Shown here in pieces: positions 2,610 through 62,279 of a stretch of DNA of 64,000 nt (the stretch's first letter is position 1; each line of letters starts with the position of its first letter). Origin of the DNA: Lantana camara (lineage: Eukaryota; Streptophyta; Magnoliopsida; Lamiales; Verbenaceae). The position numbers and the translations under genes were made by a program. The stretch covers positions 122,375,501 through 122,439,500 of the forward strand of contig CM074857.1 of assembly GCA_037501455.1 (NCBI GenBank), read 5' to 3'. The notes beneath the pieces are model-generated. The model ran no database searches. It saw nothing but the letters and a program-made list of their open reading frames with translations, and had not been told where the DNA came from.

Positions 2610-2614
2610 AATTT

Positions 2615-12141: not shown

Positions 12142-12404
12142 CTACAAACAATCACAATCAAATAGTCAAAACATAAAGGGTTTTCATAACATAAACATGT
12201 GTCAGAATATGATAGTAGTTCAATTATTAAATTAGAAAACATTATATTACTCTTGATGATGACCCTAGGTAAATTAGAAAACTATACAATCAAAGAAAGT
12301 TGTATGTAGGTGATGACCCTACGTAAATTAGAAAATTATATTTGTTGATGACAGTGAAGAAATCTTTTTGTTAACAACTCAAATTAGAAAATTACATTTC
12401 TTAC
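12142..12404. other. Spacer or intron between the TNP1-like and TNP2-like genes
   Basis: It is AT-rich, 263 bases, with no coding signal. It contains a short imperfect repeat, GATGACCCTA(G/C)GTAAATTAGAAAA, at about 12256 and 12309. Confidence 0.4.
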
Positions 12405-28886: not shown

Positions 28887-28898
28887 ACGTATAAGGAA

Positions 28899-32042: not shown

Positions 32043-32634
32043 GAAGTTGGCTCCATGACGCACGAGCCTAAACTGCACGTCACTCTTGGCCCGCAAGAGT
32101 ATAAAATGCGTACGACAACCACTAATTGTAGTGCACGTGGTTAAACTACTAATCTACTCCACTGATGATATTTCATGTGGCTAAAATGCAGAAATATCCC
32201 ACCTCGCCCAGGGTGGTTAAGCTTTGGATACTCCTGGCCCGCACGAGTATAAACTATGTACGGCACCCCCTCAAAACAGTGTTATGTTTCCCGAACTACG
32301 TTATGACTTGATCCTCTTCGCAGGGGTACGTAGGCAGCTTGAAATTTGAAATTCAAGTTCAGTCAAATCTTAAAACAAACCAAAGGTTCCTGTCACCTTC
32401 ATGTTCATTGGTTATGTTTGAATTTCAAACAAGTTCACGAAATTCTACGTTTGAAACATGCGACAAAAATTCGTAATGTACACCAAGCATGAAGAAAAAT
32501 GGAATTAAACTACAAGACTCAAAAGAACGGAGTTGAAGAAAAATGCATAATTTTATTCCACCAAAAGAGTTCTTACACATCAAAAGAAAGAACGACATAG
32601 AAAGGAATAAAAAAGTGCTATAACAACTACATGA
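32043..32634. other. Noncoding region between converging sense and antisense genes of the Tat element
   Basis: No gene is supported. Two related blocks carry TGGCCCGCA(A/C)GAGTATAAA followed by GTACG(A/G)C, near 32085 and 32237. The region probably holds the 3' ends of both transcripts. Confidence 0.5.
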
Positions 32635-35600: not shown

Positions 35601-35663
35601 ATCATCTCTACGACCCTTGATGATAATGTGCGGGGACGGCTCACGACGATCTTCGATGTCCAT
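32635..35663 (-). pseudogene. Antisense extra gene of the Tat element: plant-mobile-domain-like protein, three exons
   Basis: Three exons agree in phase on the minus strand: 33621-35663, 33430-33541 and 32635-33338 (about 950 codons). A longer start at 35714 is possible. The first 440 residues resemble the plant mobile domain seen in aminotransferase-like proteins and in extra ORFs of Tat elements (MPPSRLGEVSFHDGYWEWTE, CNRNIFQAFLELWCPSTNNL, SISLWDVRGLCGLPIRGEFY). The middle is Ser/Pro-rich, and the C-terminal third is a long coiled coil (QLAMQWKELEKQLAKLRAKEE). One in-frame TAG at 34341-34343 interrupts exon 1. Opposite-strand genes at this position are known from the Tat group. Their role is not settled. 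Confidence 0.75.
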
Positions 35664-38956: not shown

Positions 38957-40530
38957 ATGTCAATACCCAAATATAAGAATCTCGATCTTGAAATGCAGAC
39001 AACAATTGCAAACAACAATCAATCAATGGTGCCCAACTCGGATAACTTGTTCATCGGAATCAAACTAAATGGGGATAATTATCCGATATGGGCACACCTG
39101 ATGAAAATGGCGATCGGAGGCAGAGGCTGCCGCTCGCATCTAACCGGTACACCACCGGCACCAGAAACTACAGACCCAAAGTTTGATCAGTGGGAGCAAA
39201 CTGATCAGAATGTCTTCACTTGGATAATCCAGAATTTGGAACCAAGTCTCATCAATAATGTTCTTCAATACCCAACTGCGAAGGAGCTATGGGATGGCCT
39301 CGCCACCACGTACGGAAGCGGCGGAGACCTGCTCCAACTCTTCGATTTACACAGAAGAGCCAACACCTAACGACAAGGGCAAGATAGCCTCGAAAGAATT
39401 TTGGAATAAACTGCAATCCATATGGATGGCAATCGACAGGAAGCAACCCAATCCCATGAAATGCCCCGACGACATCAGGGCATTCAATCTTCTGACCCAA
39501 GAGCAAAGATTATATCAATTCCTCACTGGAATAGATGAGAAATACGAACCCATCCGGAGAGATATCCTGAAACAGGATCCAAAACCTTCCGTGGAAGCTG
39601 CCTATGCTACCATCCTAAGAGAGGCAACCCGACTCCAGATTTTGAAATTGAATACAGGAGGCGACGGGGAATCCGGGATTGGATCTGGGCTCATGGCACG
39701 AAAGGAGAAGAATGGCCGGAGTTTTGGGTGCTCAGATGGCGGCCGTACCAACGGCAATCGCCGTTCATCACCGTGCGATGACAAGGCAGGGGTGGTGTGC
39801 GGTCAGTGTGGGAAACCAAGACACACAACCGAGCAGTGTTTCGAAATAATTGGATACCCGGAATGGTGGGAAGGCCCGCGGAAGAACACCGGCGGAACCG
39901 CCGCCAGGGGCGGACACAAAAGGGTGAACGTCGTGGCCAGCAACGGAGAGGGGAGACAGAGAGCAGGCGATGCGGCGGCAGGTGTAGTCCGTGGAAACTC
40001 CGGTGCCGCCGGGTCAGAAATGAGCCGGGCCAACGTCGCCGTCCTCTCCAGTGCCGACGACAGAAAAAATGGGGAAGAAGGGACTGATTTCGGCCCAGCA
40101 GCAGGTAAGGGGTTTGGGGGTTGTGTCCCAAACCCTAGTTCCTTTATTTGTACTTTCCAAATATTTGGAGACAAGTCCCCAGTTTATGATCAAGTACATG
40201 AACATCCCCACTTATCTACTAGTGTAAGCTTTTATACCCAGAATTTTACTAAAGAAACTTCTAAGTGGATAATTGACTGTGGTGCTACGGATTCTGTGAC
40301 AAATGATTACTCTGATTTACTTGATCCGATTAGTTCGAATAATTCTCATATTCAAACTGCAAATGGGAATTTAGCTATGATTAAAAAGGAGGGACCTGCT
40401 CGTATTACACCGAACCTTAAACTCAGCAATTGCCTTTATGTGCCTTCATTGTCTTGCAAACTGCTGTCTCTCAGTCAGTTAACCAGAGAATTGAATTGTA
40501 TGGTTCTGATTTATCCTCGTTTTTTTTGTG
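38957..40530 (+). pseudogene. gag and protease of the copia element, frameshifted
   Basis: The start is ATG 38957 (MSIPKYKNLDLEM). The copia gag core follows (LNGDNYPIWAHLMKMAIGGR, then EFWNKLQSIWMAIDRKQPNP). A TAA at 39368-39370 and a nearby frame change (about 39400) move the frame. The zinc knuckle CGQCGKPRHTTEQC is at about 39800-39840. The protease active site is WIIDCGATDSVT near 40275, with DCGAT where DSGAT is usual. A second frame change at an eight-T run near 40520 separates this from the integrase frame. Confidence 0.82.
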
Positions 40531-41799
40531 ATACAGGACATTCATACGAAGGAGATCATTGGAGGTGGTACTGAGCAGGGTGGTTTGTATTACGTTGATG
40601 AAGTGGAAACTCCGTCCAAAGCTTTACTTTCAGTCGGGCAGGCGAATACTCAGCTCTGGCTTTGGCATCGACGTTTAGGACATCCCTCCGTAGGGTATTT
40701 GAAAGTTTTATTTCCTGCTTTATTCCATAATGGACAATCTGTGGATTTCTCTTGTCAGACTTGTTTGAGCACTAAGAGTCATAGATCTTCCTTTAAACCG
40801 AATAATACAAGAGTTGAGACTGTTTTTTCATTGATACACTTGGATGTTTGGGGACCTGCCCCTGTTACAAATCAGCACCAATTTCGATACTTTGTGCTAT
40901 TTATCGATGATTTCTCACGCATGACATGGGTATACTTTCTCCGTCAGAAATCCGAGGTCTATGAAACTTTTGTTGCATTCTTTAAAATGGTTCAGACTCA
41001 ATTTAATCAGAAAATTAAGATACTCAGGTCCGACAACGGCAGGGAATATGTTAATCAAGAAATGAACAAGTTTTGTCAAGAAAAGGGACTCATACATCAA
41101 ACCACCTGTCCTAACACCCCCCAACAGAACGGGGTATCCGAAAGGAAGAACCGTACTATACTAGAGATGACCCGTACCCTCATAACAGAATCCCATGTTC
41201 CACCCAACTTCTGGCCCGAAGCAGTTGCTACTGCCACCTACCTCACCAACAGATTACCCACTAAAATACTCAACCACCGAACACCCCTATCCGTTCTTGA
41301 AACCCAAAGCACCGTACCTCCCCACCTTACCCTACCACCTCGTATCTTTGGTTGTACTGTGTTTGTCCATATTCCAAAAGCCTACAAGAATAAGTTGGAG
41401 CCGTGTGCAACAAAGTGTGTTTTCGTGGGATATGCTCCACATCAAAAGGGGTACCGGTGCTATGACCCTATCAGTCGACGGATTCACGTTACCATGGACT
41501 GTGATTTCGTGGAATCTGAATACTATTTCCTCACCCACTCCAGTGATCAGGGGGAGAGTCAAGGTGAATCACTATACTGGCTGAGCTATTCAGATACAGA
41601 CCCCATGCAGATAAAAGAAGATCTCAGTACCACTGCTCACTTGCTCAATGATCCTCCTCCGGATGATGTCCATAACGAGGTAATAGAATCTGAACCAACT
41701 TTTCCTGTTAATCATGATCATGTTGATTTCTCCAATACTGATATGGCCTCTGAGAATGTGACAGAAGAACACAGGTACCCTTTGCGGAGCAACAGATGA
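40528..41799 (+). pseudogene. Integrase of the copia element
   Basis: A GAG-pre-integrase zinc-binding segment comes first (LWHRRLGHPSVGYLKV, CQTCLSTKSH). The integrase core follows, with IHLDVWGPAP, LRSDNGREYV and NGVSERKNR supplying D, D and E. The conserved C-terminal block is CVFVGYAPHQKGYRCYDP. The frame ends at TGA 41797-41799 within the short region before RT (RYPLRSNR, then RYSPDHH). Confidence 0.87.
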
Positions 41800-43458
41800 A
41801 TTCCACCACACAGGTATTCCCCCGATCATCATTCCCGGTCTTCCAAGTATCCTATAGGAAACATGGTCAGGGGGAGCATGTCCGGGGTCGCTAAGGCATT
41901 CTTTGGAAATCTTTGTAAGGAAGCCATTCCAAAAACAGTGGAGGATGCCAGACAAGACAGTGAATGGGAAAAGGCCATGAATACAGAAATGGAGGCATTG
42001 ATTAAAAATGAAACTTGGGAGAAATGCCAACTCCCCATAAGAAAGACACCGGTCGGGTGTAGATGGGTGTTTACCATAAAGCACAAAGAAGATGGGTTAG
42101 TGGAAAGATACAAAGCCCGACTAGTGGCTAAGGGGTATACTCAGACGTTTGGGGTGGATTATTCAGAAACTTTTTCATCGGTGGCAAAATTGGACACAGT
42201 TAGGGTGTTACTGTCTGTAGCTGCAAATGAAGACTGGCCACTTCACCAGTTTGACGTGAAGAATGCATTCTTGCATGGGGATCTCTCAGAAGAGGTCTAT
42301 ATGGAACCCCCTCCGGGATTTGCAGGGGAATTTGGGCAGAACGAAGTCTGCAAACTTCGCAAGGCCCTGTATGGGTTAAAACAATCACCTCGAGCGTGGT
42401 TTGGCAGATTTACAGTGGCGATGCAACGCCATGGATATGTTCAGAGTAATTCTGACCATACCTTGTTCTTGAAAAGACGAGGGGAGCTGATCATGTGTTT
42501 GATTATCTATGTAGATGACATGGTAATTATGGGGAGCGATGTAGAAGAAATAAGCGGACTCAGAGAGAACGTCTTCAAGGAATTTGAGATGAAAGACCTT
42601 GGGGGTCTGAAGTATTTTTTAGGGATCGAAGTTCTGCGCTCTAAACAGGGCATCTTTATATCTCAGAGAAAGTATATCCTCGATTTATTGGCCGAAACAG
42701 GGATGCTCGAATGCAAGCCAGTTGATACTCCCATATAGGTGAATCACAAGTTGAAGATAGAAGAGAGTGGGGAGCCAACAGAAAAGGAACGGTACCAACG
42801 GCTGGTCGGCAAGTTGATCTACCTATCTCACACGAGGCCAGACATTGCTTATGCTGTAGGGATTGTTAGTCAGTTCATACATAAACCACAGAAGGAACAT
42901 ATGGAAGCCGTGGTACGGATAATTAAGTATCTGAAAGGAACGGTTGGGACAGGAATTATGTTTGGCAGGCATGGCCACCTGGACATAGAAGCATACACAG
43001 ATGCTGATTGGGCTGGGAACCCAAATGATAGAAGATCCACCTCAGGGTTGGTGACTCTAGTGGGAGGAAATGTGGTAACCTGGCGCAGCAAGAAACAAAA
43101 GGTTGTGGCCCTATCCAGTGCAGAAGCAGAATTCAGGGGCATAGCGAAAGGAGTGACTGAAATAATTTGGCTAAGGCGGCTAATGAGCGAGATTGGTATT
43201 ACTTCGACAGGTCCAAGTCCACTGAAGTGTGATAACAAAGCTGCCATCAGTATTTCAGAAAACCCAGTCCAACACGATAGAACAAAGCATGTGGAAGTTG
43301 ACCGGCACTTCATCAAAGAAAAACTAGAGGGAGGCATCATATCTATCCCGTTTGTCAGATCAGAGGACCAGTTGGCCGACATCCTAACCAAAGTGGTCAC
43401 AAGTCAGACATTCCAGACTGTGTTGAGCAAGTTAAGGATTGGAGATTCCATCACTTAA
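41800..43458 (+). pseudogene. Reverse transcriptase and RNase H of the copia element
   Basis: RT shows TPVGCRWVFTIKHKEDGLVE, ARLVAKGYTQTFGVDY, FDVKNAFLHGDL, ALYGLKQSPRAW and the catalytic IYVDDMVIMG. TAG at 42736-42738 interrupts the frame after KPVDTPI. RNase H follows (RPDIAYAVGIVSQF, YTDADWAGNPNDRRSTSG, KCDNKAA, KHVEVDRHFIKEKL) and ends at TAA 43456-43458. Catalytic residues are preserved. Confidence 0.88.
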
Positions 43459-45820: not shown

Positions 45821-46690
45821 GTTCTAACAGTGCTTTCAATTCCCACGAGCAACGGATTCCCGAAATTACTAAACCTGCGAATAACACGCCAGTCAACTGA
45901 TGTCGAGTTTCCATTCTTCAACAAAATAAGAACAATGTGGAAAGACACCATACAAGACAACCCCTCAAAACAGAGAAAAAGAAGCTAAAATTGATGCCAA
46001 TTATACTGAAAAATAACACATTAGTTATTGCATTACTCATAATATATGATAACATCTGAAACCTTTAGTGATAATTTTTGAGCTAGTTTTACAAAATACA
46101 ATGCGATGCCCATAACAATTCTTGGTTTTTTGGTTTCTTCTTGCCCATAACAATATAAATTTCGAATCCAAATTTCAGAACATAGGGAGGATTCTCTCAA
46201 GGGAATTTCACTTTCTCCCAAGATACTTTTAGGACATTATATATGGCACAAATTAACACCTCAACTCCATCAATTGAGTACACAGTAACTGATGAGCAGG
46301 GGAAACAAGCAAAAGCCACAGAGACACGAAAGCAAAGCCAAAAACTCGGTTAGATTCATGAGAATAAAATACAAATAATACCCTCTAAAGAATTAAAGCT
46401 TAAAAGGCTACCTCATTTGCTCAAAATACATCTAACGAAGTCTGATTCCTTGAAACGCAATCGATTTCAGAAGAAAGAACAAACACAGAACAAGAATGGT
46501 AGTTTAACTTCTGATGTAAAAAAGAAACATGCCCAGAACCAGCCCATTGTTAAGAAAGGTACCTTGAACGAAATAGAGGTCGTCCCCACAAAGGTAATAT
46601 ACGTCACGGCGGTGCTCGGCGTAGGTAGGCGGCGGATTAAGGTGCGGCTTAGTGAGTGGAGAGAATTTGGTCCAAGGGACGCCAAACTCT
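45821..46690 (-). promoter_or_regulatory. Probable 5'UTR, leader intron and promoter-proximal region of RPC9
   Basis: A GC-richer block at about 46561-46690 looks like a 5'UTR exon. It ends at a good donor (minus strand TTCAAG|GTACCT, at 46560). The intervening AT-rich DNA is then a leader intron reaching to about 45920. The transcription start is not certain. Confidence 0.45.
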
Positions 46691-47459
46691 TTTTTTTAGG
46701 GATATAACCCTTAATTTCTTTTCCCCTTTTCTTTCTCGTTTATTATCTGACGTGACACTATTAAATCATAAACTAAATATGTTTCGCTCGATTTGTAAAA
46801 GAAGAAACCATTGGGGCCATTTTGCAAAATATAATAAATATATCAGTTGTACACAAATTGCCTCAAAACCCAAATTCTCTTCATTTTCCCCTCTTCTCTC
46901 TTCTCTCCTTCTTCGTCGCCGTCGCTGCAGAATTTGATAAGTTTCATTTACTTTATTTATAACTCCATAGCCATGACCCAATAACAAACGAAACCCTAAT
47001 CTCTCTTTCTTCTTCATACTTCTCGCCGCCGCCCTCTAACTTATTCCACCAGATCTCCTCTCTGCCAGTGTGTCTTATCTCTAGATAGTAGCATGCTGCT
47101 TCGTAATTTTTGCACACAATTCCACACAAATTTTGATCAAAAATTACGAAGCGCATGTTACTTTCTAGAGCAATGATGAAATTCTGGTCACTTCTTTCCG
47201 CTGCTGCTTTGAAAAGCGTATGGAATAATCTGCGTATTGATGATTCTGTGTTTGTACTATAACACCGAATCATCAATATCAACTGTATTATTTAACCGAG
47301 TTTGAACAAATCTACAATTGACTCCCCTGTATCCATTCTGAAAACGTATTGCCTCGCCTGTGGCCACTCTGCAAACATTTGTGGAACATGATGTTGGCAA
47401 GAAATCCCAACTAAATGGAGAATTCGAAATCCTGGTCCAATATCGAGAAATCGAAATCC
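46691..47459. other. Spacer with a leader-like pyrimidine-rich block and two hairpins
   Basis: Positions 46870-46925 form a CT-rich tract (CTTCTCTCTTCTCTCC, then CGTCGCCGTCGC), typical of a plant 5'UTR on the plus strand. No following ORF is convincing, so it may be the leader of a displaced gene. A perfect 15 bp inverted repeat (GCTTCGTAATTTTTG at 47098-47112 and its complement at 47138-47152) and an 11 bp one (47236-47246, 47268-47278) lie downstream. Confidence 0.4.
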
Positions 47460-47970
47460 TGCTAGAATCGAGTTCTAGATTCATGTAATCTAGTACTAGA
47501 TCAATCACTTGAAACGAATTTCACTTATTTTTTTCAACGCATTATTTGTTGGGGTACGTAATATGTGTAATGTAGCAATAATATTTCTTGTTTACCTTTT
47601 AAAATCCATATTCCATCCCAGTAATGAATAATATAGTACTAGATCAGTTGGTGTAAGAAATAATCTAGTACTAGATTAATCTTTTGAAACGAATTTTGCT
47701 TATATTTTGAACTCATTATTCGTTGGCGTACGTAATTTGTGTAACCTGGCAGTGATATTAATTGTTTTACCTTTTAAAATCCATATTTTAAGTCAATAAC
47801 GAATAATCCAGTACTAGATAAGTCACTTGTAAAGAATAATCTAGTACTAGATTCATTTAATCTAGTACTAGATATTGAATAATCTAGTACTAGATTCAAT
47901 TAATCTAGTACTAGATTAATCAGTTCAAACGAATTTCCCATATTTTTTTGAATCTAGTACTAGATTCATG
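47460..47970. repeat. Array of CTAGTACTAG palindromes, left arm
   Basis: Seven exact CTAGTACTAG copies occur at 47490, 47665, 47841, 47862, 47884, 47905 and 47954, plus near matches at about 47633 and 47811. The flanking sequence also repeats: TTGAAACGAATTT with (C/G)GTACGTAAT follows the motif at about 47.5 and 47.67 kb, a unit of about 175 bp. Confidence 0.85.
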
Positions 47971-47999
47971 AATGCAGAGATTCATTATCCATCTCTTTA

Positions 48000-48690
48000 A
48001 TAACAATAAGGTGACTTTTTGAGATTCATGAAGCCCAATACTTAAATGTCGAATCCAAGCTCCAAACCGGTGGATTGGTTTAGTCGCCTGCACCTCTATA
48101 ATCAGCCGTATTTTATTGAAATATGGTTGAGCCAGCACAGGAGTAGAGCTTGAAGATGAAATATCGATGATTGAAATAGATGAATGATCTTATTAAGCTT
48201 CATGAACCCCAATCCTCAATATCCATCTCCAAGCTCCAGTCCGATACTGGCATGTTTTCGCTGCTAGGGTTTGGTTTTGCTTTTGCTTGATGGAGTTAGG
48301 ATGAGCCTGGTAATTGGACAATTTATAGAAAAAATTAGTGATACATGCATTCAGTTAGCCAGAACAGGAGTGGAGCTTGAAGATGAAATATCCAGGATTG
48401 GGGTTCACGAATGATCTTATCAACAAGAATAAGGTGACTTATTGAGCTTCATGAACCCCAATCTACCTCTCTTGAAGAAGAACAAGAAGAAGAAGATAAG
48501 AAAGAAATAAGGAGAAAACGGGTAGGGTTGTGCGGATAGGTTTACTGCAATACTTGTTGTTACATTGAAGCATTTATAAGTAAAAATTAGGTTGAGTTTG
48601 TTTCCTAAAAGCATTAAATTCAAGTGGTTGACAGATGCATTAAATTCAATTGTGTTGGCAGATGCATTAAATTCAATTGGGTGCCAGATG
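48000..48690. repeat. Diverged ~200 bp repeats and a 26-27 bp minisatellite
   Basis: CAGGAGT(A/G)GAGCTTGAAGA followed by TGAAATAT occurs near 48137 and 48364. ATTCATGAA or CTTCATGAAC with CCCAAT recurs near 48023, 48200 and 48448. At 48611-48689 the unit GCATTAAATTCAA(G/T) is repeated three times with a 26-27 bp period. Confidence 0.6.
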
Positions 48691-49057
48691 CATTTCTCAT
48701 AATACCAGGTGGCGCCTTTCTACCACAAGTCCAGCATGATTTGTTATTATTACATTTGGCGTCTTTTCAGTATTTCAAATATTTATTATTATCATTGGAT
48801 ATTAGGGTTTAGGATTTACGGTTTAGGGTTTGGACAAGCTGGTTCTAAAGAACCCTAAACCATAAGGTGCCACTGAATTAATTGAAAAGATTGCACCCTT
48901 CCCGTAGTTTGACCGACCAATATTGAAGAGGTAAGACAACGAAGGTGTGCGACGATATGTATCCACTTTACATCATAATGTCTAATCACCTGTATTTATA
49001 CCTTGCCTTCTTCTCAATCTCTCCCATATTTCATATACTTGATTGATAAACAAAGTC
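48691..49057 (+). promoter_or_regulatory. Upstream region of small gene copy 1
   Basis: It contains the telomere-like inverted pair GGTTTAGGGTT (48820-48830) and AACCCTAAACC (48851-48861). From about 48900 it matches the upstream region of copy 2 (about 49983-50138), sharing CCCGTAGTTTG, TATATACTTGAT-type text and CAAAGTCATGG. Confidence 0.5.
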
Positions 49058-49706
49058 ATGGCAGCAGCACCCATTCAGGGCGAGGTTGAAGCCTGCATGG
49101 TTGAACGTCTTCGGCAATATGCCGCAGAAAACCAAATTTCCCAACTAGAAGTCTTCCAGACAGGACTGTTTAGCGTGTCTGTTGAATTGTCACAGCGTTT
49201 CCAACAATAATACTTGCCCCAAGATGTTATAGAAGCGGTCAGAGGTCTGCAGATTAAATTTTACAACTTTTGTAGATTCTTGGGGTGTCATGGGGTTGAA
49301 GGAATGTCAGATGATGGTTTTCGCGCCAAATGGACGCCGTGGAATATTATAGTTCGAATCCCATAGCTATAAGTCAACTAATACATAAATCATGTTCTTT
49401 TTAATTTATGTTCATAATTTAATATACAATTACATTCCTTAGGTCGTTCACTGGGATGATGAACCCAGGTTTCAGGGATGCCGTTATTACGATCACCTTA
49501 GGTTTATCTTCAAAGTGCGGCAAGCACACCTCTTGGAAGGCGAAGAGCACCACCTCCACGTAGACAACATTGATGGTAGGAACTCAGACCCCGAGTCCCA
49601 GTCCCTTGAGGGCGACGATCACCCCGAGGACTCTGAGGATAGTGCTAATTCAAACATCCCTCAGAATGATAATGATGAAGTTAATCAGATTAATCCTCCC
49701 CCTTAA
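49058..49706 (+). pseudogene. Unrecognised small two-exon gene, copy 1 (disrupted)
   Basis: I do not recognise the family. Exon 1 starts at ATG 49058 (MAAAPIQGEVEACMVERLRQ) and exon 2 is 49443-49706 (VVHWDDEPRFQGCRYYDHLR, IFKVRQAHLLEGEEHHLHVD, then an Asp/Glu/Asn-rich tail). The intact ancestor would be about 190 residues with an acidic C-terminus. Exon 1 has an in-frame TAA at 49208-49210. The donor site aligned with copy 2's GTAAGG reads ATAAGT here, so splicing is also damaged. Exon 2, in contrast, is open. It lies on the opposite strand from the DUF1985 and transposase genes and was duplicated together with its promoter. It might correspond to a third VANDAL-type gene, but that is only positional inference. 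Confidence 0.6.
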
Positions 49707-50138
49707 GTTTTGATGTTGGTAGTCTCATTAATTTGTAAAAAGAACACAGAAGATCGCGTGATAGAAGGGTTCAATCTATCACTGGACTAAGTGCCCTTTG
49801 TTGATTTTATTTAATGCAATAACTTCTGTTGTTGTTCAAATGCATTTCATTCACTTGCAATATAATAAATTAAATATTTACAAGGCTTAAAATAAAGTAA
49901 ATCGGTTGATTTTTATACGTTAGATTGTGAAGTTCCCAGAAAGCCGAAAGGGCATCTACATTAAATAAAAAGTTGCAATCACACTTTCCCGTAGTTTGGC
50001 TGACCAATTTTGAATACCAAAAGGGCGCGACGATTGGGTTACACTTTCTTTCTTTCTGCCTCTTACCTGTATAAATATATGTTGTCTTCTTCTCACTCTC
50101 TACCATATTTTATATACTTGATAATCAGAATCAAAGTC

Positions 50139-50736
50139 ATGGTAGCACCCATTGAGGGAGCAGTTGAAATCTACATGGTTGAACGTCTTCGGCAGTATGT
50201 CGCTGATAACCAAGTTTCGCAACTAGAAGTCTTCTATTCAGGCCTTGTTCTATTGTCCATTGAATTGTCAGATCGATTCAAACGAAGATATTGGCCCGAA
50301 GATGTTATATCGTGGGTGAAAGCAAAGCGGAAATTTTTTTACAACTTCCATAGTTACTTGGCTTGTCCTGGTGTGTACTTGGCTGAAGATCGCAAAAATG
50401 GCCGAATTGTTTTTGATGCATATAAGAATGGGAATACTATGGATGTAAGGCGAAATCATACTCAATCATTTTCTTTAGATGTTGTTCATTTTTTGACTGT
50501 ACTAATGTAACGTATTTACATAGGTAATTCGATCGCATTAGGAGATCAGGGTGCGCGGATGCCCTTTCTACGACGAACTTAGTTTTATCTTCAAGGTGTG
50601 TGAGGCACACATGTTGGAAGGCGAAGAGGACCACCTCCACGCAGACCGCATTAAGGATAGGAACTCAGACACCGTTGGAATTGCCGGCGAGGAGAGTGTT
50701 AATCCAACAACCCTCATTATGATCCGGATGAAGTGA
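50139..50736 (+). pseudogene. Unrecognised small two-exon gene, copy 2 (disrupted)
   Basis: This is a tandem copy of the gene at 49058, 1.08 kb downstream. Exon 1 is 50139-50444 (102 codons, no stop; MVAPIEGAVEIYMVERLRQY, then LLSIELSDRFKRRYWPEDVI) with a good donor GGAT|GTAAGG. Exon 2 begins at 50524 but has TAG at 50539-50541. It also carries a one-base frameshift near 50715 before the shared C-terminal motif. The lesions are therefore in the opposite exon from those of copy 1. The family is unknown. The only features are a predicted helical N-terminal half and an acidic C-terminal half. Confidence 0.6.
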
Positions 50737-51099
50737 ATCAGTTTCATCCTCCTCTCCCATAATTTATGTTTTTTGTACTATGCCTACTTTTATTTTATTT
50801 TTAATAAAAGTTATCAGTTTGTAGAATTATTATTGATTTTGTATATTTACATTTATCCAAAATCAAGATCTAAACCCCCAAATTAACAATAATAAAAAGA
50901 AATATTCTAGTATTTGAAATTATCTAATCCAAAATATATCTCGGAGTCAAAACGGTATCTGAAAAAGGGGATATGATCGTCCTTCAGCAGATCTAGTGAC
51001 TTCCCCCGCATAAGAAGTTCAATGCAACACAACGTGTAGATTCCACAATCTCCACTGCAAAGTAGCAAATGAAATTAAATCAAAGTTCAAGGATCGCTT

Positions 51100-51195
51100 G
51101 CTCGATAAGGGTAATCTACTACGAGAACAGTGTGATCAAGTTATAGAAAGATGCAATCTAGTACTAGATAAGGATAATCTAGTACTAGATATGGA
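51100..51195. repeat. CTAGTACTAG pair downstream of the DUF1985/ULP1 gene
   Basis: There are two exact palindromes at 51158 and 51179, each as AATCTAGTACTAGATA, and a near match at about 51114. Confidence 0.8.
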
Positions 51196-51959
51196 AGTTT
51201 TTTCTATATTGTTCTCAGTTAATAAATATTCTTTATGTGCCTTCGTGTATTTTTTGGGCTGTTCTCCACAAGTTTCAGCTTCCAGATGATGGTGAGCTTG
51301 CTGCCCAAATACTGGAACTTTCCAGTCTGTGCCAATAGTCTGGGGAAGAAGGCACATAGATGATTCAAGGTAATTTGGTAGTTCCTTGCATCAAGTGGTG
51401 CAGAGGTGTTATTATATATCCTGATCGTTTTCTCATTAATCAGAATCTCCACGGTAATCCAATGAGAGTTTCCAACATTTACTGCACCGTAAAATTTATT
51501 TGCTTCGTCCCATGGTTGTCTATGCAGTGATAGTGATGCAGCAGATCTTGTGTGATCCAGAACATTGGACTGCCATTTGAAGGGAACATTCCAAATGCCC
51601 TTCACCTCCTCCATTGAATGATCCGCAGTTTGGAGGTCAATGTTCTCTGTATTCTTCACACTCCTGCCAGCCTTGCCACCCCTGGCAGCACCCCTGACAC
51701 TCTTCGCCTTATTTGCCCTTCTGAGAATCACGATATTGCCATCCTCGCCAATCCCTACAGAATCATCCTCATCAATGAGCCCCCTTGCCACGTAGTAATT
51801 CACCTTAAGATCTTGGAAGAAGGTCTCATCAAGGACCCTACAATCCTGAGCATATAGATCCACGCGTGTCTTCTGTTTAATCCTTAAATTGGCCAAACAC
51901 TCTGTCACATGCTGAAATGGTGTGAACGAAAATAATTTGTTAGGCCAAAACAAAAAAAT

Positions 51960-52185
51960 AATAAATAAAGGGATCGATTGATATACAGGGGCAATCTAGC
52001 ATTAGATAGATAAGGGTCTACTGATAGATATGGGAAATCTAGTGCTAGATAGATAAGGATCTAGTGATAGATATGGTAAATCTAGTACTCGATACATAAG
52101 GATCTAGCGATAGATAGGGGAAATCTAGTACTCGATACATAAGGGTATAGTGATAGATAGGGGAAATCTAGTACTACTACACATT
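51960..52185. repeat. Intron array of CTAGTGATAGAT/CTAGTACTCGAT motifs
   Basis: About ten motif copies occur within one intron of the DUF1985/ULP1 gene. The repeating unit is (A/G)GGGAAATCTAGTACTCGAT followed by ACATAAGG and TCTAGTGATAGATA, with a period of about 50-55 bases. Confidence 0.8.
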
Positions 52186-53214
52186 TATGTTTTACTATAT
52201 TTGTTATTGGAAATTTGTTTACCCCGGAGTGCAACCATTTTCCCGTTGCGAGGAGGACTTGCAGTTCTTCATTGTTAAACTCATGAGTCTTTCCTCGAAT
52301 TGGCTCTTGTGGGTTGGCACTGAACGCCCAGTGGTATAACGAGCTGGAATTTGAATTCTCTCCCATTTTGGAAAACCATTTGGCGAGAGTAAGAGGAATG
52401 TCAGCTGCAGTTTCTTCCTCTTCCGGAAAAGACTGATGGACAACCTGTGGCTGAGCCTCCAAGGTGGTTGGCTGTGTAGCTCTAGCTCTGGCTCTGGCTC
52501 TAGCCATGCAAATCTGTTTATATTAGGCTGCAGTATATGGAGAGAGGAGGCATGCGGCCCTTCTTTTAGTTCTCTTTGGTCTTGTTTTACCTTTACTTTT
52601 AGGGGCCTCCAACTCCTGCTGCACCATTACATTACCGCGGGCCTTGTCTTGGGCAGCTTTTTCCAAATGCTGCAATATTTTATCCAAAAATAACTTTGTA
52701 GATTCTTAATTAGCATCTGTTTTGGAGAGAAGGTTATCCATAAACTGTTGAATTTCTGGAGGAAGTTTAAATGCAGCAGCTCCTGAGGGTGTTGTGGGGG
52801 ATCTAGTGACATTTGGGGGTGTTGTTGGACCGGGTAGGTTGGTTGTTGTGTATGGTGGGGGTGGTGTGCACCAATAATTGCCCCAATCGGTATGTTCTGG
52901 AGCGAGTGATAGAGGTACTGATGGGCACCAATCATTGCCATCATCATGATCTGGCTCATTTGAATACAGTGGCGGAGGGGGCAATTCATTTCCAATGATC
53001 AACTGGGTGCACCCTTCTAAAATTTGTTTCAGATCATCAATGGGTGCATCATCAACATCCGTCGGTTCTTGCAATCCAAACATATAACTCATTGTTTTCT
53101 CCTTGGTGGATGGAAACAAGAATGGATGGACGGCTACCTGATTCTGATACATAATTTTTTATTTTTTTTTTAAAAATGGCTGTCAAAAACCAAATAGATC
53201 GAGTAAGAGAACGG

Positions 53215-53405
53215 AAGGTTCTAGTACTAGATTACATTTGTAAAAAAGCTTTTGCTTAATAGTCTAGCACGTGATTGAGGTGTTCTAGTACTGGATTACA
53301 TTTGTAAAAAAGTTTTTGCTTAATAATCTAGCACGCTATTGAGGTGTTCTAGTACTAGAGTTCTGGTACTAGCACGCGATTGAAGTGTTCGATAACTAGA
53401 TTATT
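53215..53405. repeat. Intron array of CTAGTACTAG and CTAGCACG motifs
   Basis: Exact palindromes occur at 53221 and 53349 with variants between them (CTAGTACTGG, CTAGCACGTGATT, CTAGCACGCTATT). A unit of about 64 bases (AGTTTTTGCTTAATA, CTAGCACG, ATTGAGGTGTTCTAGTACT) is repeated two to three times. It lies wholly in an intron of the DUF1985/ULP1 gene. Confidence 0.8.
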
Positions 53406-54994
53406 TTTTTATAGAAATTTCATTAGTTTTTGAGATCAAACCTCGAGCCTATGATTATCTTTTTGGGCATACAGATCCTCCATTTCCAAGGGCAGACCTT
53501 TGGACTGCATCCATCTAAATAGCCTGGGGAGTGGCAGCATGGACGTTCCATCTTGAGGTTGTAGTCCACTCCTATAACTTGCTATAGTTGGGCACATTTC
53601 GTAAGCCCAAGCCTAATCACAAAACACAAAACCACTCAGAAAATTAACGAATGCAAATTATTATCATGAAGAGTCGAAGGTTCACCTGCAACGTCCAAGG
53701 AAAACCACTAAGATGATAGGTCCTCTGTTTAGGCACTTCCACAGGATCCCATTTGACAATATCACTTAACCTCTTTTTTATTGTGTCTATTGTCCCTTTG
53801 AATGACAATAGACCCCATGGGTATCTGTAGAAAAACTTCAAATCACTGGCAAAACAAATATAATCCATTTTCACCACTCTTCCCTTCTCAACCCCAAGCA
53901 AAATATATTGAACGAAGAGCACAAGAGCAATTTTCTTGCGATCGCTCACATCAATATTCGTATTTTTTAACAGGGGCTCCAACTCTGTATCCTTGACCTT
54001 CTTATCCTATTTATCTCCGAGCACCCTCTTACGAAAATCCTCCGACTCCTTTTTAACGTTTTCAACCTCAATTCCTTCTGGGATTACACCAGAACCACAA
54101 TTAAGCCCGGTAACCAGAGCAAACTCCCTTAAACCAAATCTGACAGGCTTTCCTCCTATCAAGAACCAAAGTTCATTTTGTTTTTCTGTTGGAAGGGAGT
54201 ACATCATGAGAAAATGGAAGAGGGTGCCTGAGAAACCTTTATTCCAACCTAGAGGAAGCTTCTCCGTATATTTTCTAAACACTCTTGCGAGCCTTATACG
54301 GTTTTTTTTAAGGAATCTTGTAATGGGGGTAATGCGTTCCCATGAAGCACGGATTGTAATCCTCACTTTTGACGAGAAGAAGCAACGGTCACAGAGAGGG
54401 AGCAAATGGAATTTTGAGAAATCGATGCCGTGGGTAACCTCTGACTCCACATCCTCCGACTGCATATCAGATTCGTTCCCCACCGCCTCTATATATGGTG
54501 TCATGGTCATGACATTCTCAGTCTCAGAATCATCTTGGCGGCGCTTACTCCTATTTTCTTGAATAAAAAATCTCGCCGCTTCATTTTCTTCATTGTTACT
54601 GGAACTGGTACTTGTACTGTGATTATCATCAGGCGCATGGGCATCTTGCATGGGCGCTGTGGTTTTTTCTGAATCTACGACGGGGTTAACGTTCGCTTCC
54701 TTTGATGCCATATCTACTTTTTGGAAAATTTGATAAAAAGGGGTGAAGTCAACTGGACAGAAATGGAGAAAACCAAGAAAACCCTAGTTTTTTTTTTAAA
54801 TGATCTCTGAAGATTCAAAGATGAAGACGATGAACAGAAAAGTATTGAGATGTTGAACAGTCTTTTTTCTCTTTTTCTCTCTTACGCAAATAAGGAAATG
54901 ATTGCGATTGGATTGACCAAATGACAGTAAAATAATAAAAAATCGCTTAACTGTCAGACAAAAACACAACTTCATTTAAAGCTTGCCGCCTTTT

Positions 54995-56215
54995 TTTGAA
55001 CGTCCCAGTCATACAACTTTTGGGGGGCCTTGGGAAGCCTGTTCCATCACGTTTGGGCGGTTGTGTGTATGGAAAGCCTACGGATGGGGTATAGAGGCTT
55101 GGAAAAATATAAAAAAAATTAAAAGCAGCCATTCTGATGGAGGATCTAGTGACAGATACCCACGATCGATCGATAGATATGCCCCAGTCCTTGGCCCAAA
55201 ATGAAGATCAGCGTCCCTTATCTTGCTCTACACCCTTGGGGAGCCTGTTCCATCGCGTTTGGGCGGTTGTCTGCAATCCTGGCGAACCCAAGTGTGGGGG
55301 TCCTCCCAATTCTCAAGAAACTAGTCCACGATAATGGCTTGGGTTTTGGGGTTACAGCCCAATGTTGCACCAAATAAATCCAAATTTACTAAGATCAACA
55401 TGCAGTTGTATGGAAAGCCTACGGATGGGGTGTGGAGGCTTGAAAAAATATTAAAAAAATTAAAAGCGGTCATTCTGATGGAGGATCTAGTGATAGATAC
55501 CCACGATCGATCGATAGATATGCCCCACTCCTTGGCCCAAAATGAAGATCAGTGTCCATTATCTTGCTCTACACCCTTGGGGAGCCTGTTCCATCGCGTT
55601 TGGGCGGTTGTGTGCAATCCTGGCGAACCCAAGTGTGGGGGTCCTCCCAATTCTCAAGAAACTAGTCCACGATAATGGCTTGGGTTTTGGGGTTACAACC
55701 CAATGTTGCACCAAATAAATCCAAATTTATCAAGATCAACATGCAGTTGTATGGAAAGCTTACGGATGGGGTGTGGAGGCTTGGAAAAATATAAAAAAAA
55801 AATTAAAAGCGGCCATTCTAATGGAGGATCTAGTGATAGATACCCACAATCGATCGATAGATATGCCCCACTCCTTGGCCCAAAATGAAGATCAGCGTCC
55901 CTTATCTTGCTCTACACCCTTGGGGAGCCTGTTCCATCACGTTTAGGCGGTTGTGTGCAATCCTGGCGAACCCAAGTGTGGGGTTCCTCCCAATTCTCAA
56001 GAAACTAGTCCACGATAATGGCTTGGGGTTTGGGGTTACACCCCAATGTTGCACCAAATAAATCCAAATTTATCAAGATCAACATGCAGTTGTATGGAAA
56101 GCCTACGGATGGGGTGTGGAAGCTTGGAAAAATATTTAAAAAAAAATTTAAAAATGGCCATTATGATGGAGGATCTAGTGATAGATCCACACGATCAAGT
56201 GGTAGATTTGGTCTT
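54995..56215. repeat. Tandem array of a ~342 bp unit (three full copies plus a truncated one)
   Basis: The anchor GGAGGATCTAGTGA occurs at about 55139, 55480, 55822 and 56168, giving periods of 341-346 bp. Each unit also carries GATCGATCGATAGAT, CCTTGGGGAGCCTGTTCCATC and CAACATGCAGTTGTATGGAA. The first unit (54995-55133) lacks its middle part. The repeated ORFs across it are by-products of the array. It lies between the DUF1985 gene and the transposase gene. Confidence 0.9.
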
Positions 56216-57480
56216 ATTACACAATACAACACCAGTTACATTGTGAGTTTTACAATCCAAATAACCAGAATTACTATTAAAAGAAGCATCTGGCCTACTA
56301 CCAACTTGTACACCATATTCTGTTCTCCTCCAGCTGTAACAATTGGTGTCCTCTGGCTCGTAGCGTCACCACCTTCGTCATTATATGGGTACTGATCTTC
56401 GACCACGGGGTTACACCAATAAGAAAAGCCATGCTGATTGCACTAATAAAATAGTCTTCCCCGATTCAAATTATCTCTCTCTACCACCTTTATTGTAGTC
56501 CACTGATCGCATTCCCTGCACTTCTTCTTTCTATATCTCAGTGTTTTTTTTCTAGGTATAAGTAGAGCTAGCTGAACTTGCCATGATCTTTAAATTCGTT
56601 AAATGATAATCAAATGACCTATATAAATATAAATCCAAGGAACCCACCAACGGCTATAATAACGGCTACTATATTAATGGTTATAAATGTTTTGTAATAT
56701 TAAGAACTTTCAGGGGCGCTTTTGTAAACACCCAAAAAGTTAAGTATTTAAACCCCACTAAGCCCTAAATTCCTTTCAATTCCATTTTTTTTTCTCTACC
56801 GTAGCCGCCGGCATTCCTTGCTTCCGCTCCCCCCTCCTCTTCCTCTGCCTCTCCTCCTCATCCTCTCTCTCTTCCTCCCCCGCTTAAGGCCAAAAATCCT
56901 GCGCAAATTTGTGAGAGTCTGCCCTATTAGTTTGAATTGCTCTTGAAAATTATCATGTTTGTTGTATGATTTCCGCCATACAGTAGGAATCAATAGGTGT
57001 TTCTTTATTTGGTCCATGTAGTGTTTACTCGTTGTAGATGAACTATACGATGGGCAGTACAGGAGAGAGTTTTGAGATGCTTTGCATAACAATGGAAAGA
57101 AACCCTTGAAAATGCAAATGAAGATTTATTATGCATGTATAATAAATCTATAATAAAGCTTCAATTGCATTTTCCAGGGTTTCTTTCCATTGTTTGCAAT
57201 GCAAAGGTTGCACAAAGCTCTCAAAACTCTCTCATGTATTGCACATTGCATAGTTTTTCTACAATGTCTAACGATCTATTGCAAGGCCAAACAAAGAAAT
57301 CTATTGATTGTTACTGTTTGGCAACAAGTCCTACAGAAATGAAGATTTTCATGAACATTTCAGTCAAATACGGCAGATTTTGTGATTAAGGAAGAAGACC
57401 AGATCAACTTAATATTTTACATGTTAATATTTTCTTCTGTTAATATTTTATTTTATTAGAAGTTATATGTTATTAAATCC
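56216..57480. repeat. Noncoding stretch with a long imperfect inverted repeat (about 56935-57360)
   Basis: There is no gene. A pyrimidine-rich leader-like block lies at 56780-56885 (minus-strand reading is R-rich, low complexity). From about 56935 to 57140 and from about 57145 to 57360 the sequence is an inverted duplication with roughly 200 bp arms. Matched landmarks include CAATGGAAAGAAACCCT with AGGGTTTCTTTCCATTG, GAGAGAGTTTTGAGA with CTCAAAACTCTCTC, and CTATTGATTCCTACTGTATGG (complement) with CTATTGATTGTTACTGTTTGG. The transcript could fold into a long hairpin. Confidence 0.7.
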
Positions 57481-58240
57481 TAGTGCTAGATCCTTGGAAT
57501 CTAGTGCTAGATCCTTAAACTCTTTTTTTGCAACTGGGTTTCTAGTACTAGATCAAATAAATCGAGTGATAGATCCTGAGGTGCACTGTTTGATCTACTG
57601 ATAGATCCTTTGAATCCTAGTGCTAGATCCGTTGAATCTAGTGCTGGATCCTTTAAATATCTTTGGGATCTACATAATACATGGAAAAAAAGCAAGACGT
57701 AAAAAAATTAATTTGAAAAAGTCCAAAGCTCAATTTATTAACATCTTATATAGCTCTTGGAGATGAACATATCACAAGGGAAAAAAGTCGGGTTTCTTTG
57801 CAGCCGGGTTTCTAGTACTAGATCAAATAAATCGAGTGATAGATCCTGAGGCGCATTGCTTGATCTACTGATAGATCCTTTGAATCCCAGTGCTAGATCC
57901 GTTGAATCTAGTGCTGGATCCTTTAAATATCTTTGGGATCTACGTAATACAGGGAAAAAAAGCAAGATGTAAAAAAATTAATTTGAAAAAGTCCAAAGCG
58001 CAATTTATTAACATCTTATATAGCTCTTGGAGATCAACATATCACAAGGGAAAAAAGTCGAGTTTCTTTGCAGCCGGGTTTCTAGTACTAGATCAAATAA
58101 ATCGAGTGATAGATCCTGAGGCGCACTGCTTGATCTACTGATAGATCCTTTGAATCTAGTGCTAGATCCTTAAACTCTAGTGCTTGACCATTTAAATATC
58201 TTGGGATCTACATAATACAGGGAAAAAAAATCAAGACGTA
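57480..58240. repeat. Tandem array of a 270 bp unit rich in CTAG palindromes
   Basis: TCTAGTACTAGATCAAATAA starts at 57541, 57811 and 58081, an exact 270 bp period (two full units and a partial third). Each unit holds about six motif variants: CTAGTACTAG, CGAGTGATAG, CTACTGATAG, CTAGTGCTAG and CTAGTGCTGG. The array lies just downstream of the transposase stop codon. Confidence 0.92.
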
Positions 58241-58320
58241 AAAATCACTATATTACATAATCAACCTTCTTTAATTACAAGAAAACACAAAAAATATATT
58301 CAACACCCTTTTACTTGTGA

Positions 58321-61300
58321 TTAATTATTCGTTTCCTCGACACCCTGGTCACAGGTAGTTCTTTTATGTCCCTTTCCTCCACACTTTGAACAAGTATTGT
58401 ATCTTTTCCTTCCCTCATAAGGAGCCAGGAAACGCATCATCCTTTTTCTTCCGACGCGAGAGTTTAGTGTTGGTGGTTTTACTTGTTTTATCCCTGTGTC
58501 TTCAGGCAAATCCCAGTCGAACTCTGGAGGTGTTGGGAATATTGTCTCAGAATATGCAAGTATGTAATAATCAACTTTGTAAAATTTGGAGCATACGTCA
58601 TATATTCCTTGTCCAAAATGTTCTTCGTTGCACTTCTTTAACGCCGACAATGCATGGGGACAGGGGATCTTCTCCGCCTGGAAGACACCACATGTGCATG
58701 TCATATTGTTCAAGTCAACCATAACCGAATCTCCAAGGCCACGGACAGAAAATACATGAGCGTTGAACTGTTGTGCAACGCAACCTTTAGATTTGTCCAA
58801 ATTAATCCGCATAACTTTCTCTTTTGAAGGCACCAGGATTGTATTGCACTTTAACATATCAGTTCGTCGATCGTGGAACCATTTTCCCAAAATTCGTATG
58901 ATAGACTCAATCAAAGAATGGATAGGATACCCTCTTTCAACACGTAGCCTAGAATTAATAGACTCGGCGATATTGCTGGTCAGGACATCAAACCTGTTTG
59001 ATTTAGAATGTACCGGGCTCCATAACTCAAAACCAACCTCATCTTTCAAGTATTCCGCAGCACGTTTGTAAAGACGTTCTATCTCTTCGTAGTGCTCCAT
59101 GAAATCTCCGACAGTGTATGCTTTCACTGCCCTGAAAAATGGATCAAGGATCGCACTCTTTTTAAACCGTTGTTTCAAGTTCTCCGACAAGTGCTTTGCA
59201 CAAAATCCATGGTGCGCAGTAGGATAAACCTTAGCAATCGCATTTTTTATGGAAACGTGTCTATCTGATATTATACAGAGATTGGCACTATCAGGTACAA
59301 TGCTCTTTAGATTGTTAAAAAATCATTCCCACGATGCATTATTCTCTGAATCGACCACTGCCCATGCAAGAGGAAACGTATGGTTCTCACTATCTTGTGC
59401 AGTAGCCACAAGCAATGTACCGTCATATTTACCCTTCAAGAAGCAACCGTCAACGGCTAACACCTTGCGCATGTATTTAAAACCCCGTATGCAAGGGCCA
59501 AATGCAACAAAAAAATACAGAAACCTGCCTTCGGTGTGAAGAACCAAATCAGTGATGCTTCCTTCATTCGTTCTTGTTAGCATATACCGATATGCATCTA
59601 TTATTTCATATCCATGCTCTGGTGAGCCCTTGACAATATTCATAGCATGATTTCTGCCCATCCAACACTTCCAGTAGCTAACCTTCACGCCCAATTGAAG
59701 TTCGATGTGCTTTTTAATATCGCCTGGTGTGGGGTCTTTCGCGTCAAGAAACATATGCTGCACTAACTCCCCTATCATTTGGGCTGTTGCCTGATGATGA
59801 TGATTAGTTATCTCCTCCAACCCACAATTATGAGTCCGAATATACTTTCGGAGGTAAAATCTGTCAGAATTGTGAGATTTAACACACCGAACCCACCATT
59901 TGCAATCATTGCAACAACATCGCAGAACCAGAAGGGACTTTGATGATTTTAGTGTTCGGAATTGGAAGCTTCCCTTACATGCAACTATGTTGAATTTCAG
60001 AACGGCTTCTTGTTTGTTTTTAAACTCTTCGTCATCCTTAAAACCTGAACCATCATCCCACGTATGTCTTTCAATCCCGACCTCGGGATTATAATAACAG
60101 ACGATGGCTTCTTCCTCATTAATATATTCATTGGGAACTTCTTCCTCAGAGGGATGTTGAAGATCTGCTTCGGTCCCACACTTTTCAATTTCTTCGTTTA
60201 CACCATCAGGCTGAGAGACGTCTTCGTCGTTGTTATCAGGAAGAGCTGGGATCCAGTTTTCATCATTGTTATCACGAAGAGCTGGGGTATAATCTTTATC
60301 GTTGTTATCACGAAGAGTCCAGTCGTCATCGTTGTTATCAGAAAGGGTGAAATCCTCATAATTATGTTCGTATTGATCATTATCATCCTCAGATGTAGTG
60401 AACACTGTTGTCCCAACCCGTACGGCTTATGTTTGACTCTCCCTCCTATCAAAAGAAACATTCAAGGTCGACCTCCAGCCCTGAGGATGGATATCTGCGA
60501 AGTAAACTTGAAGGTCACGATCAGACTTTATTTCAGTTGGATGACCGGTTGGAAGTGCACTTGAAAGAAAATATTTCACATGTACGTCATCATGGGAGCA
60601 AGCAAGTCCTGATTGTTCAAGAACATCACTTATCAACATTCGAAGTGTAGTCTGATTGGTGACAACAAGAGCAGTTGTTTGCTTTTTGTCAGCAACCCAA
60701 TTCCAACGAGTGGATTCTTCTTGCCAAACTCCAAATTCAACTCCAACAACAAACGTCCTATACACAGTAGGAATGAATATTTAATTATCCATACATGCAT
60801 AAGAATCATCTAGCACGCGATCAAATGAATCATGGGCTATTGAATAAAGAAAACCCTATAGAAACACGTTGCATGGAAAAAATAAACCATGCATGCATTA
60901 AAAAAGAAAAAGAAAAAAAAGGGATCGAATACTAGATATATCTATTCCAGTGCGCGATACATGATCTAGCACTAGAATATCATGGTCGAGCACTAGATAT
61001 ATATCAATCCAACAAGCGATCAAATGAATCATGTGTTATTGAATTAAGAAAACCCTATAGAAACACGTTGCATGGAAAAAATAAACCATGCATGCAGTAA
61101 AAAAAAAAAAAAGAAAAAAAAGGATCTATCACTCGACATGGTATGATCTATCAGTAGATATATGATCTATCAATAGATACTTTTAATCTAGTAATCGACC
61201 ACTGTTAAGAGGATGAAGAAAGCCCACGATCATGTTTTTACGTCGAATCAATCAAGGATGAGTTGAAATACCATATGGACATGTTGTATTGGCGACCAAA

Positions 61301-61464
61301 ACAGGTTAGAAGCTGTTCTATATTAAACCCAGAAAGATAACAAAGCCGAACCAAGGTGGGTAAAGAGTGATTCTTGATTTCTCAGTGAAAACGCCTAATA
61401 GGGTTCCGAAAACACTTCGTACGAACCAAAATCTATCTTACCTTTGATTGTCGTCGTTTGCCAT
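58321..61464 (-). pseudogene. mudrA-type (MULE) transposase, VANA-like, with two nonsense codons
   Basis: The start is ATG 61464 in a 23-base exon (61442-61464) joined to 60757 by a GT-AG intron. The rest is one long exon to 58321. The N-terminal domain (VGVEFGVWQEESTRWNWV, then a PB1-like segment) is followed by Asp-rich DNND repeats. The MuDR DNA-binding domain (CCCNDCKWWVRC, IRTHNC) and MULE catalytic domain (VLAVDGCFLKGKYDGTLL, LCIISDRHVSIKNAI, GFCAKHL) come next. A SWIM zinc finger (CTCGVFQAEKIPCPHALSAL) and a C-terminal zinc knuckle (CSKCGGKGHKRTTC) close the protein. The first two catalytic Asp are visible. TAA at 60427-60429 and TGA at 59323-59325 interrupt the frame. The first could instead lie in an unrecognised intron. 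Confidence 0.87.
60800..61200. repeat. Duplicated ~199 bp unit with CTAG-type motifs in the transposase leader intron
   Basis: GATCAAATGAATCATG starts near 60819 and 61018. GAAAACCCTATAGAAACACG and CATGGAAAAAATAAACCATG follow in both copies. Motif variants between and after are CTAGCACTAGAA, GAGCACTAGATA, TATCAGTAGATA and CTAGTAATCGACC. The array lies in the intron between transposase exons 1 and 2. Confidence 0.8.
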
Positions 61465-61470
61465 TGTCCG

Positions 61471-62279
61471 TGTAATCAGATAGAGGTGTTGATACTTTAG
61501 GGTTCTTCGAATAATCAAACGAACAGCACAGATCGGAGAAGAAATTACAGAAAAATTGGGGTTTGGGTTTTTCGTCGCAGAGCCAGGAGAGGAGAGGAAT
61601 TAGGTTGAATGTGTTTTTGGGTCAGATTTTAATTTTGTGTAAATACTGGGGTAAAAAAGAAGCTCCAAAAAAATGACGTGGCAATGATTTGATTAGGCTG
61701 AGTAATTAACTAAGGCCTAATTACACCTTAATGAAGCGGAGGGTCATATACCTAATTCTTTAGAAACTATGGGTTACATAACGGAAAAAAGACTTGTGGG
61801 GGTCATTTAATGAACTCCCCCTAGTGAGTGTGAGTGTCTGAGCCGTGGCGACTAATTTGGGGTTTTTGCTTAGGAGTTAGGATTCAATTGTAATTGAATA
61901 TTTAAGGAGGTTAATATATTAATTATGATTTATTTACGTCTAAACCCCAAACGAGTGTTTAAATAAAAGAACACTCCCATATTTAAATGTATTAACATTA
62001 GACACTCAAATAAATTTTAAAATTACAAATTATCCCATCTCCACTGGAAATTCTTTTTAAAAACTATTGTATTCATTTGGGGTTTAGATGTAAAAATTCA
62101 CTTTTGGGATGTTGTGTGTTTTAAAAACTCATTTAGATTAAAAATTTGGACGAAAATTATCAAGAATTCTAATAGAAAGAGGGTCATTTATAATTTTAAA
62201 ATTCATTTGGGTGTTCCATGTTATTTAATCTAATTATGAAGGTATTTTATTATTTAAAAACTTATTTGAGGGTTTATAC
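61471..62279. other. AT-rich spacer with an inverted repeat
   Basis: No gene is seen. TTACGTCTAAACCCCAAA (61934-61951) is matched by its complement with one mismatch at 62077-62094, so a small fold-back element is possible. The right end of the Mutator-like element must lie somewhere between about 61.5 and 61.9 kb but could not be placed. Confidence 0.45.

Follow-up and report, generated by a model that had tools for sequence, protein, structure and literature searches.

The window analyzed here is a 64,000-nucleotide stretch of the Lantana camara genome (contig CM074857.1), in which the region 46659–61821 was found to be one single transposon, a Mutator-like element (MULE) with a mudrA-type transposase gene, a DUF1985-containing gene, and two small genes. 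An earlier sequence-only reading had placed these modules in 14 kb of DNA packed with a palindrome, and had taken the whole for a possible VANDAL-type anti-silencing system with its own target motif. The modules do lie together in one element, but the 14 kb first stated was too small. The ends were set by aligning the element with a second copy from this genome, copy C (G000:C1:7144000-7163800, L008+L009), the two largest alignment blocks being 91.5–91.7% identical. The element is flanked by the 9-bp target-site duplication TAGTGAGTG; copy C has the start GAGAGAATT in common with it and a target duplication of its own, TAGTTTCATC, of 10 bases as read by eye. Since comparison by eye of the initial 20 bases with the reverse-complemented final 30 showed no extended inverted repeat, the element was classed as a non-TIR (terminal inverted repeat) MULE. 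It thus combines the absence of a long TIR with a target duplication of about 9 bp, as a VANDAL-type MULE should.

The genes of the element

All three gene modules of the sequence-only reading were borne out. The mudrA frame, the counterpart of VANA, matched MULE (PF10551) and SWIM (PF04434) above the Pfam cut-off and DBD_Tnp_Mut (PF03108) just below it (24.8 bits, cut-off 25), and contains two internal stops. The DUF1985 gene comprises four exons on the minus strand, with splice sites placed by eye and three internal stops, and the domain was found by Pfam as two pieces, both above cut-off. The window protein is a homologue by sequence of VANC21, whose structure is solved bound to its target DNA, and the DUF1985 of a sister element has the fold of VANC21.

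The DUF1985 gene appears to run on into an Ulp1-like domain. The spliced DUF1985 part has eight database relatives, four of which carry DUF1985 followed by the Ulp1 domain PF02902, and exon 4 aligned to two proteins of this DUF1985+PF02902 type at the HW...FP..LL region (E 1e-5, single comparisons). Pfam returned no Ulp1 for exon 4 and nothing at E ≤ 1, and its profile found nothing below E 0.088 in the PDB, with Ulp1 itself at E 0.51. The catalytic Cys motif was not seen in exon 4, by eye only and with no formal test. The model of the sister exon 4 was of low confidence (pLDDT 43); its top six PDB matches were Ulp1/SENP5 proteases (best E 7e-3, probability 0.99).

Both small genes are present on the plus strand and are related to each other, the first having an in-frame stop. 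Their assignment to a known family was rejected, as Pfam found no family for two of their reading frames and a protein-database search with small gene 2, examined as a possible VANB counterpart of the three-gene VANDAL layout, gave no homologue at E ≤ 0.01. A small gene was present in 7 of the 12 loci examined, namely six loci of the window element's family (the window family) and C1_96, and a copy lies in sister sequence at L043:707-1201. In the window it runs opposite to the DUF1985 gene, and in C1_96 the two genes point the same way.

A 14-bp dyad arrayed in noncoding DNA

The sequence CTAGTACTAG has 14 sites in the window, all within 47490–58091, against 0.01 expected from shuffles. The full unit is ATCTAGTACTAGAT, a 14-bp dyad with an ATC-N8-GAT frame. 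Thus, the claim of a palindrome packed in noncoding DNA stood, but the unit is longer than the 10 bp given for it. Allowing up to three mismatches, ATCTAGTACTAGAT has 50 non-overlapping sites in the element and one elsewhere in the window, at 13476. None of the 50 falls in a coding exon, where 19.5 were expected (p 1.8e-11), and by the looser ATC-N8-GAT definition 3 of 46 element sites are coding (17.9 expected). Arrays are found close to either end of the element, within two of the DUF1985-gene introns, 3′ of that gene, and in tandem repeats of 341 and 270 bp.

The whole genome (1.27 Gb) was searched and contains 1,628 CTAGTACTAG sites. Among the first 50 listed, 46 lie in four clusters, each with window-family sequence, and the remaining four are single, one of them (L001) with a second near-match. 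In the 48.8 kb of the window outside the element, 22 ATC-N8-GAT sites were counted, compared with 11–18 for six other spacers. The possibility that the motif is equally common in unrelated repeats, which the sequence-only reading had named among what would refute it, was not borne out by these counts, most of the genomic sites listed clustering with the family. A chance occurrence or a general genome word was likewise rejected by the shuffles and the genomic clustering. Around the 30 best of the scored DUF1985 loci, which belong to two other DUF1985 groups, no site with up to three mismatches was found within about 1.5 kb. The window motif is also not simply that of VANC21, since neither the element nor the remainder of the window contains the Arabidopsis motif YAGTATTA.

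Family copies and sister families

The genome search gave 895 DUF1985 candidates, of which 150 were scored. In a separate listing of 150 matches to the window DUF1985 exon, 47 had at least 75% identity, the exon itself included and some being pieces of one locus. Six further loci were fetched, four of the window family and two intermediate ones (C1_56 and C7_58). The four window-family loci (81–94% identical) have DUF1985 exons without a stop, and each contains 13–34 ATC-N8-GAT sites against backgrounds of 1.8–3.3, with TAG, TAT, GAG, and TAC among the commonest half-sites. Open window-family copies lie, for example, at G000:C6:9385766 and C7:86255968. The modules recur together in other copies, as the sequence-only reading required. 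One of the four CTAGTACTAG clusters is a shortened copy, B, which retains dyad-bearing sequence from near both ends.

The sister element C1_96 is structurally intact, with 14.7 kb between two copies of CTGTATGTG and the same GAGAGAATT start. Its transposase frame of 780 amino acids is open and 69% identical to that of the window, and its DUF1985 and Ulp1-like exons, read as predicted exons, are also open. It carries 65 ATC-N8-GAT sites, only one of them in a coding exon, with mostly GCG/GCT half-sites; within the same ATC...GAT frame its core is GCGTGAGC, whereas that of the window family is TAGTACTA. At C3_101, whose DUF1985 is 56% identical, the half-sites are GCG, GCT, and GAG. The C1_96 transposase has 31 relatives, the named ones being from eudicots such as Cannabis, Humulus, Solanum, and Ulmus; the best are about 40–46% identical, and one wheat protein is 26% identical. 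Many equal-scoring open DUF1985 frames of about 329–331 amino acids occur in the sister set of the candidate list, which suggests that the C1_96 family was recently amplified. The sister cores GCGTGAGC and GAGTGCGC in ATC...GAT arms (L043+L046) contain CpG and the window ATCTAGTACTAGAT has none; therefore, the two binders could differ in methylation sensitivity.

The motif tends to diverge with the protein in these sister families. Over 11 loci, with the C6 family left out, DUF1985 distance correlated with half-site composition (Mantel rho 0.55, p 0.002). The C6 family itself is distant (33%) and has no clear ATC-N8-GAT excess (5 vs. 2.5). It carries another palindrome, AGCGATCGCT, in 49 copies within 16 kb (L041+L042, G000:C6:95192001-95208000), and this distant DUF1985 MULE packed with its own palindrome would make a good second system.

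Spacing of the dyads

In six loci (the window, A to D, and L001), neighboring dyads are mostly 21–22 bp apart, followed by 32–34 and 40–44 bp. After removal of similar spacers, which reduced 129 pairs to 38, phasing at 10.5 bp was retained (R 0.68, p 2e-4) in eight loci, comprising six window-family loci with the window included, shortened copy B, and a diverged locus, A; D, L001, C1_56, and C7_58 stood outside this filtered test. The motif spacing of this set is thus helically phased. In two sister loci, the raw spacings appear phased as well (p below 0.0005 and p 0.0005). Helical periodicity, together with sequence and density, reportedly determines VANC motif specificity in the eudicot anti-silencing study of Sasaki et al. 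(2022, EMBO J), in which VANC domains and their motifs are also said to diversify rapidly.

Pairs of dyads at a 21-bp step were counted 8,869 times in the whole genome, compared with 23 for the reversed pattern. With three anchors and a 26-bp step, the counts were 8068+7563, and those of the reversed control 1724+1747. Anchor composition alone thus yields about 4.5-fold, so the reversed control overstates the enrichment of the 21-bp step, which by a rough estimate is about 50-fold and not 385-fold.

Proposed function and alternatives

These results very probably describe a VANDAL-type (KIU-like, DUF1985 plus Ulp1) non-TIR MULE whose DUF1985 protein acts through the dyads against silencing. The earlier proposal of such a system with its own motif is supported by the family restriction of the motif, the recurrence of the modules, the VANC21 homology, and the diverged motifs of the sister families. 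We infer that the DUF1985 protein of intact copies, the counterpart of VANC, most likely recognizes the 14-bp dyad, with a dimer probably contacting its two inverted half-sites. With a step of 21 bp, or two turns of the helix, the arrays would line up several dimers along the same side of the DNA, where they could bind co-operatively. The bound protein would remove or block DNA methylation over the noncoding DNA of the element, acting in cis and on other copies of the family, including shortened copies that retain the arrays. With methylation lost, mudrA would be expressed and the family moved.

Several observations weigh against this interpretation. The transposase and DUF1985 genes of the window copy are both broken, and because of its broken DUF1985 gene this copy is unable to act itself; the genes of copy C are broken too (split frames). 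Both intermediate loci, about 56% identical, have few dyads: 8 ATC-N8-GAT sites against a background of 3.8 at C1_56 (GAG in 6 of 16 halves), and 13 against 1.7 at C7_58 (GAG 10/26, TAG 9/26). When similar spacers were removed from the two sister loci (68 to 23), their phasing was not significant (R 0.35, p 0.07), and the spacings of the distant C6 family are near 44, 57, and 81, not 21. The genome-wide count of 21-bp steps was compared with a reversed pattern rather than a matched off-phase spacing. At locus A, DUF1985 differs by about 45% from that of the window, yet the half-sites are mostly TAG; therefore, motif and protein track imperfectly. Its left-end array resembles that of the window in sequence, and TAG may be ancestral or locus A a recombinant. 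Apart from this shared core at locus A, the dyad is a family-specific short motif arrayed in noncoding DNA.

The terminal arrays could be targets of the transposase as well. That the dyads are as a whole mudrA binding sites, subterminal repeats replacing the missing TIRs, with another role for DUF1985, is unlikely. The arrays near both ends and the near-end sequence kept in shortened copy B would suit such sites, but many dyads are internal, in the DUF1985-gene introns and internal tandem repeats. Moreover, it is DUF1985 that has a relative solved in DNA-bound form, and in published work VANC21 is the binder of the corresponding Arabidopsis motif. Sites of a host transcription factor driving the element's genes are more improbable still: some arrays do lie upstream of mudrA and in introns, but the motif varies with DUF1985 among sister families of one genome (locus A excepted), a pattern not expected of one host factor common to them all. 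Least likely is a motif density left behind by passive tandem duplication, without any binder. Several arrays are indeed tandem repeats (periods 21, 43, 64, 175, 270, and 341 bp), but dyads return at 21, 32–33, 43–44, and 62–65 bp with dissimilar spacers between them, their sites avoid coding DNA, and the sister families retain the ATC-N8-GAT frame while the core differs.

If the DUF1985 protein does recognize the dyads, it may do so by a modular code, a tentative idea to which we give somewhat less than an even chance. Conserved parts of the protein would read the constant ATC...GAT arms and fast-evolving parts the variable triplet (TAG/TAT, GAG, or GCG/GCT), with 21-bp steps stacking dimers on one DNA face. 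The original target could have been the half-site TAGTA, found also in the VANC21 motif and at the diverged locus A. If this code is true, the genome holds a natural set of anti-silencing proteins that differ in specificity, together with the targets that fit them.

Feature coordinates and other elements of the window

The features of the element are collected in Table 1.

Table 1. Features of the MULE in the window, in order of position
Feature	Position	Strand	Basis
Left target-site duplication TAGTGAGTG, 9 bp	46650..46658		Ends comparison
Whole non-TIR MULE; start GAGAGAATTTGG, end GAACTCCCCC	46659..61821		Alignment with copy C
Left subterminal dyad array, 10 sites with up to 3 mismatches	47467..47965		Site scan; tandem structure
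Small gene 1, in-frame stop	49058..49366	+	Reading frame coordinates
Small gene 2, open	50139..50510	+	Homologue in sister element
Two perfect dyads 21 bp apart, 3′ of Ulp1-like exon	51156..51190		Site scan
Exon 4 of DUF1985 gene, Ulp1-like domain, HW present	51219..51911	-	Alignment to DUF1985+PF02902 proteins
Dyad array, intron of DUF1985 gene	51994..52179		Site scan, tandem repeats
Exon 3 of DUF1985 gene, two internal stops	52223..53143	-	Splice sites by eye
Dyad array, intron of DUF1985 gene	53219..53360		Site scan, tandem repeats
Exon 2 of DUF1985 gene	53442..53612	-	Splice sites by eye
Exon 1 of DUF1985 gene, DUF1985 domain, VANC21 relative	53686..54711	-	Pfam; one internal stop 54007–54009
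341-bp tandem repeat, 3.3 copies; dyad variants at 55144, 55485, 55828, 56173, 56194	55066..56196		
Dyad array with 270-bp tandem repeat (2.7 copies), 3′ of mudrA	57478..58244		
mudrA transposase reading frame (VANA counterpart)	58321..60780	-	Pfam domains; stops 60427–60429, 59323–59325
Right subterminal dyad array, upstream of mudrA	60808..61199		Site scan
Right target-site duplication TAGTGAGTG, 9 bp	61822..61830		Ends comparison

Other mobile elements lie elsewhere in the window. CACTA-type transposase frames (tnp2, PF02992; Transpos_assoc) lie on the minus strand at 15837–17710, within 1699–17710, and a repeat of about 0.9 kb occurs at 1699, 7198, and 14269 (inverted) and also matches a flank of family locus D. 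Retrotransposon frames at 25974–35849 (gag-asp protease, RVT_1, RNase H) are gypsy-like by their order, with a Plant mobile domain (PF10536) frame at 34344–35849 on the opposite strand, and Copia-type frames (RVT_2, Pol_BBD) are found at 39228–43458.

Comparison with known systems

The Arabidopsis motifs, which sit in tandem repeats of noncoding DNA, are YAGTATTAY, bound by VANC21, and AGTTGTCC/AGTTGTAC, present in the targets of VANC6; VANDAL21 has its arrays upstream of VANA21 and within introns of both VANC21 and VANB21 (passages of PMC5735166). VANC expression strips methylation from matching copies, as stated in passages of PMC10398659. According to passages of a 2026 review, VANC genes that include Ulp1 (KIU) work in the same way, eudicots show strong conservation of the Ulp1 domain, and KIU-carrying Vandals recognize motifs in other KIU-carrying Vandals (PMC13317346). 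The clade, TIR, and target-duplication features of these elements are treated in passages of PMC6446971.

The analysis places in this plant genome a VANC-like system that is complete and has a sister element of intact structure. Its paired DUF1985 proteins and motifs, a few bases apart in a fixed frame, suit the study of VANC target choice and work on sequence-specific epigenome editing, and make the claim of motif–protein coevolution directly testable.

The window element differs from VANDAL21/Hiun and VANDAL6 (VANC21, VANC6) in its 14-bp dyad, compared with the 8–9 bp of YAGTATTAY and AGTTGTCC/AGTTGTAC, in its apparently Ulp1-like C-terminus, and in having no YAGTATTA. It resembles them as a Mutator-like element with degenerate TIRs, a transposase, and a DUF1985 gene, in its short motif arrayed in noncoding DNA, including VANC introns and the region upstream of the transposase, in DUF1985 sequence, and, for the sister protein, in fold. 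Compared with the KIU (Kaonashi) non-TIR MULEs, its Ulp1-like part is diverged, with no Pfam match and no catalytic Cys motif seen by eye, but the order of DUF1985 followed by an Ulp1-like domain appears to be the same. No account of this motif or family was found in the searches made of the open-licence literature. The system thus appears to be of the VANDAL type and known in kind, with good evidence from sequence and fold and a function that would follow from these, while the family, the 14-bp dyad with its constant ATC...GAT frame, and the sister families with swapped cores are, as far as checked, new.

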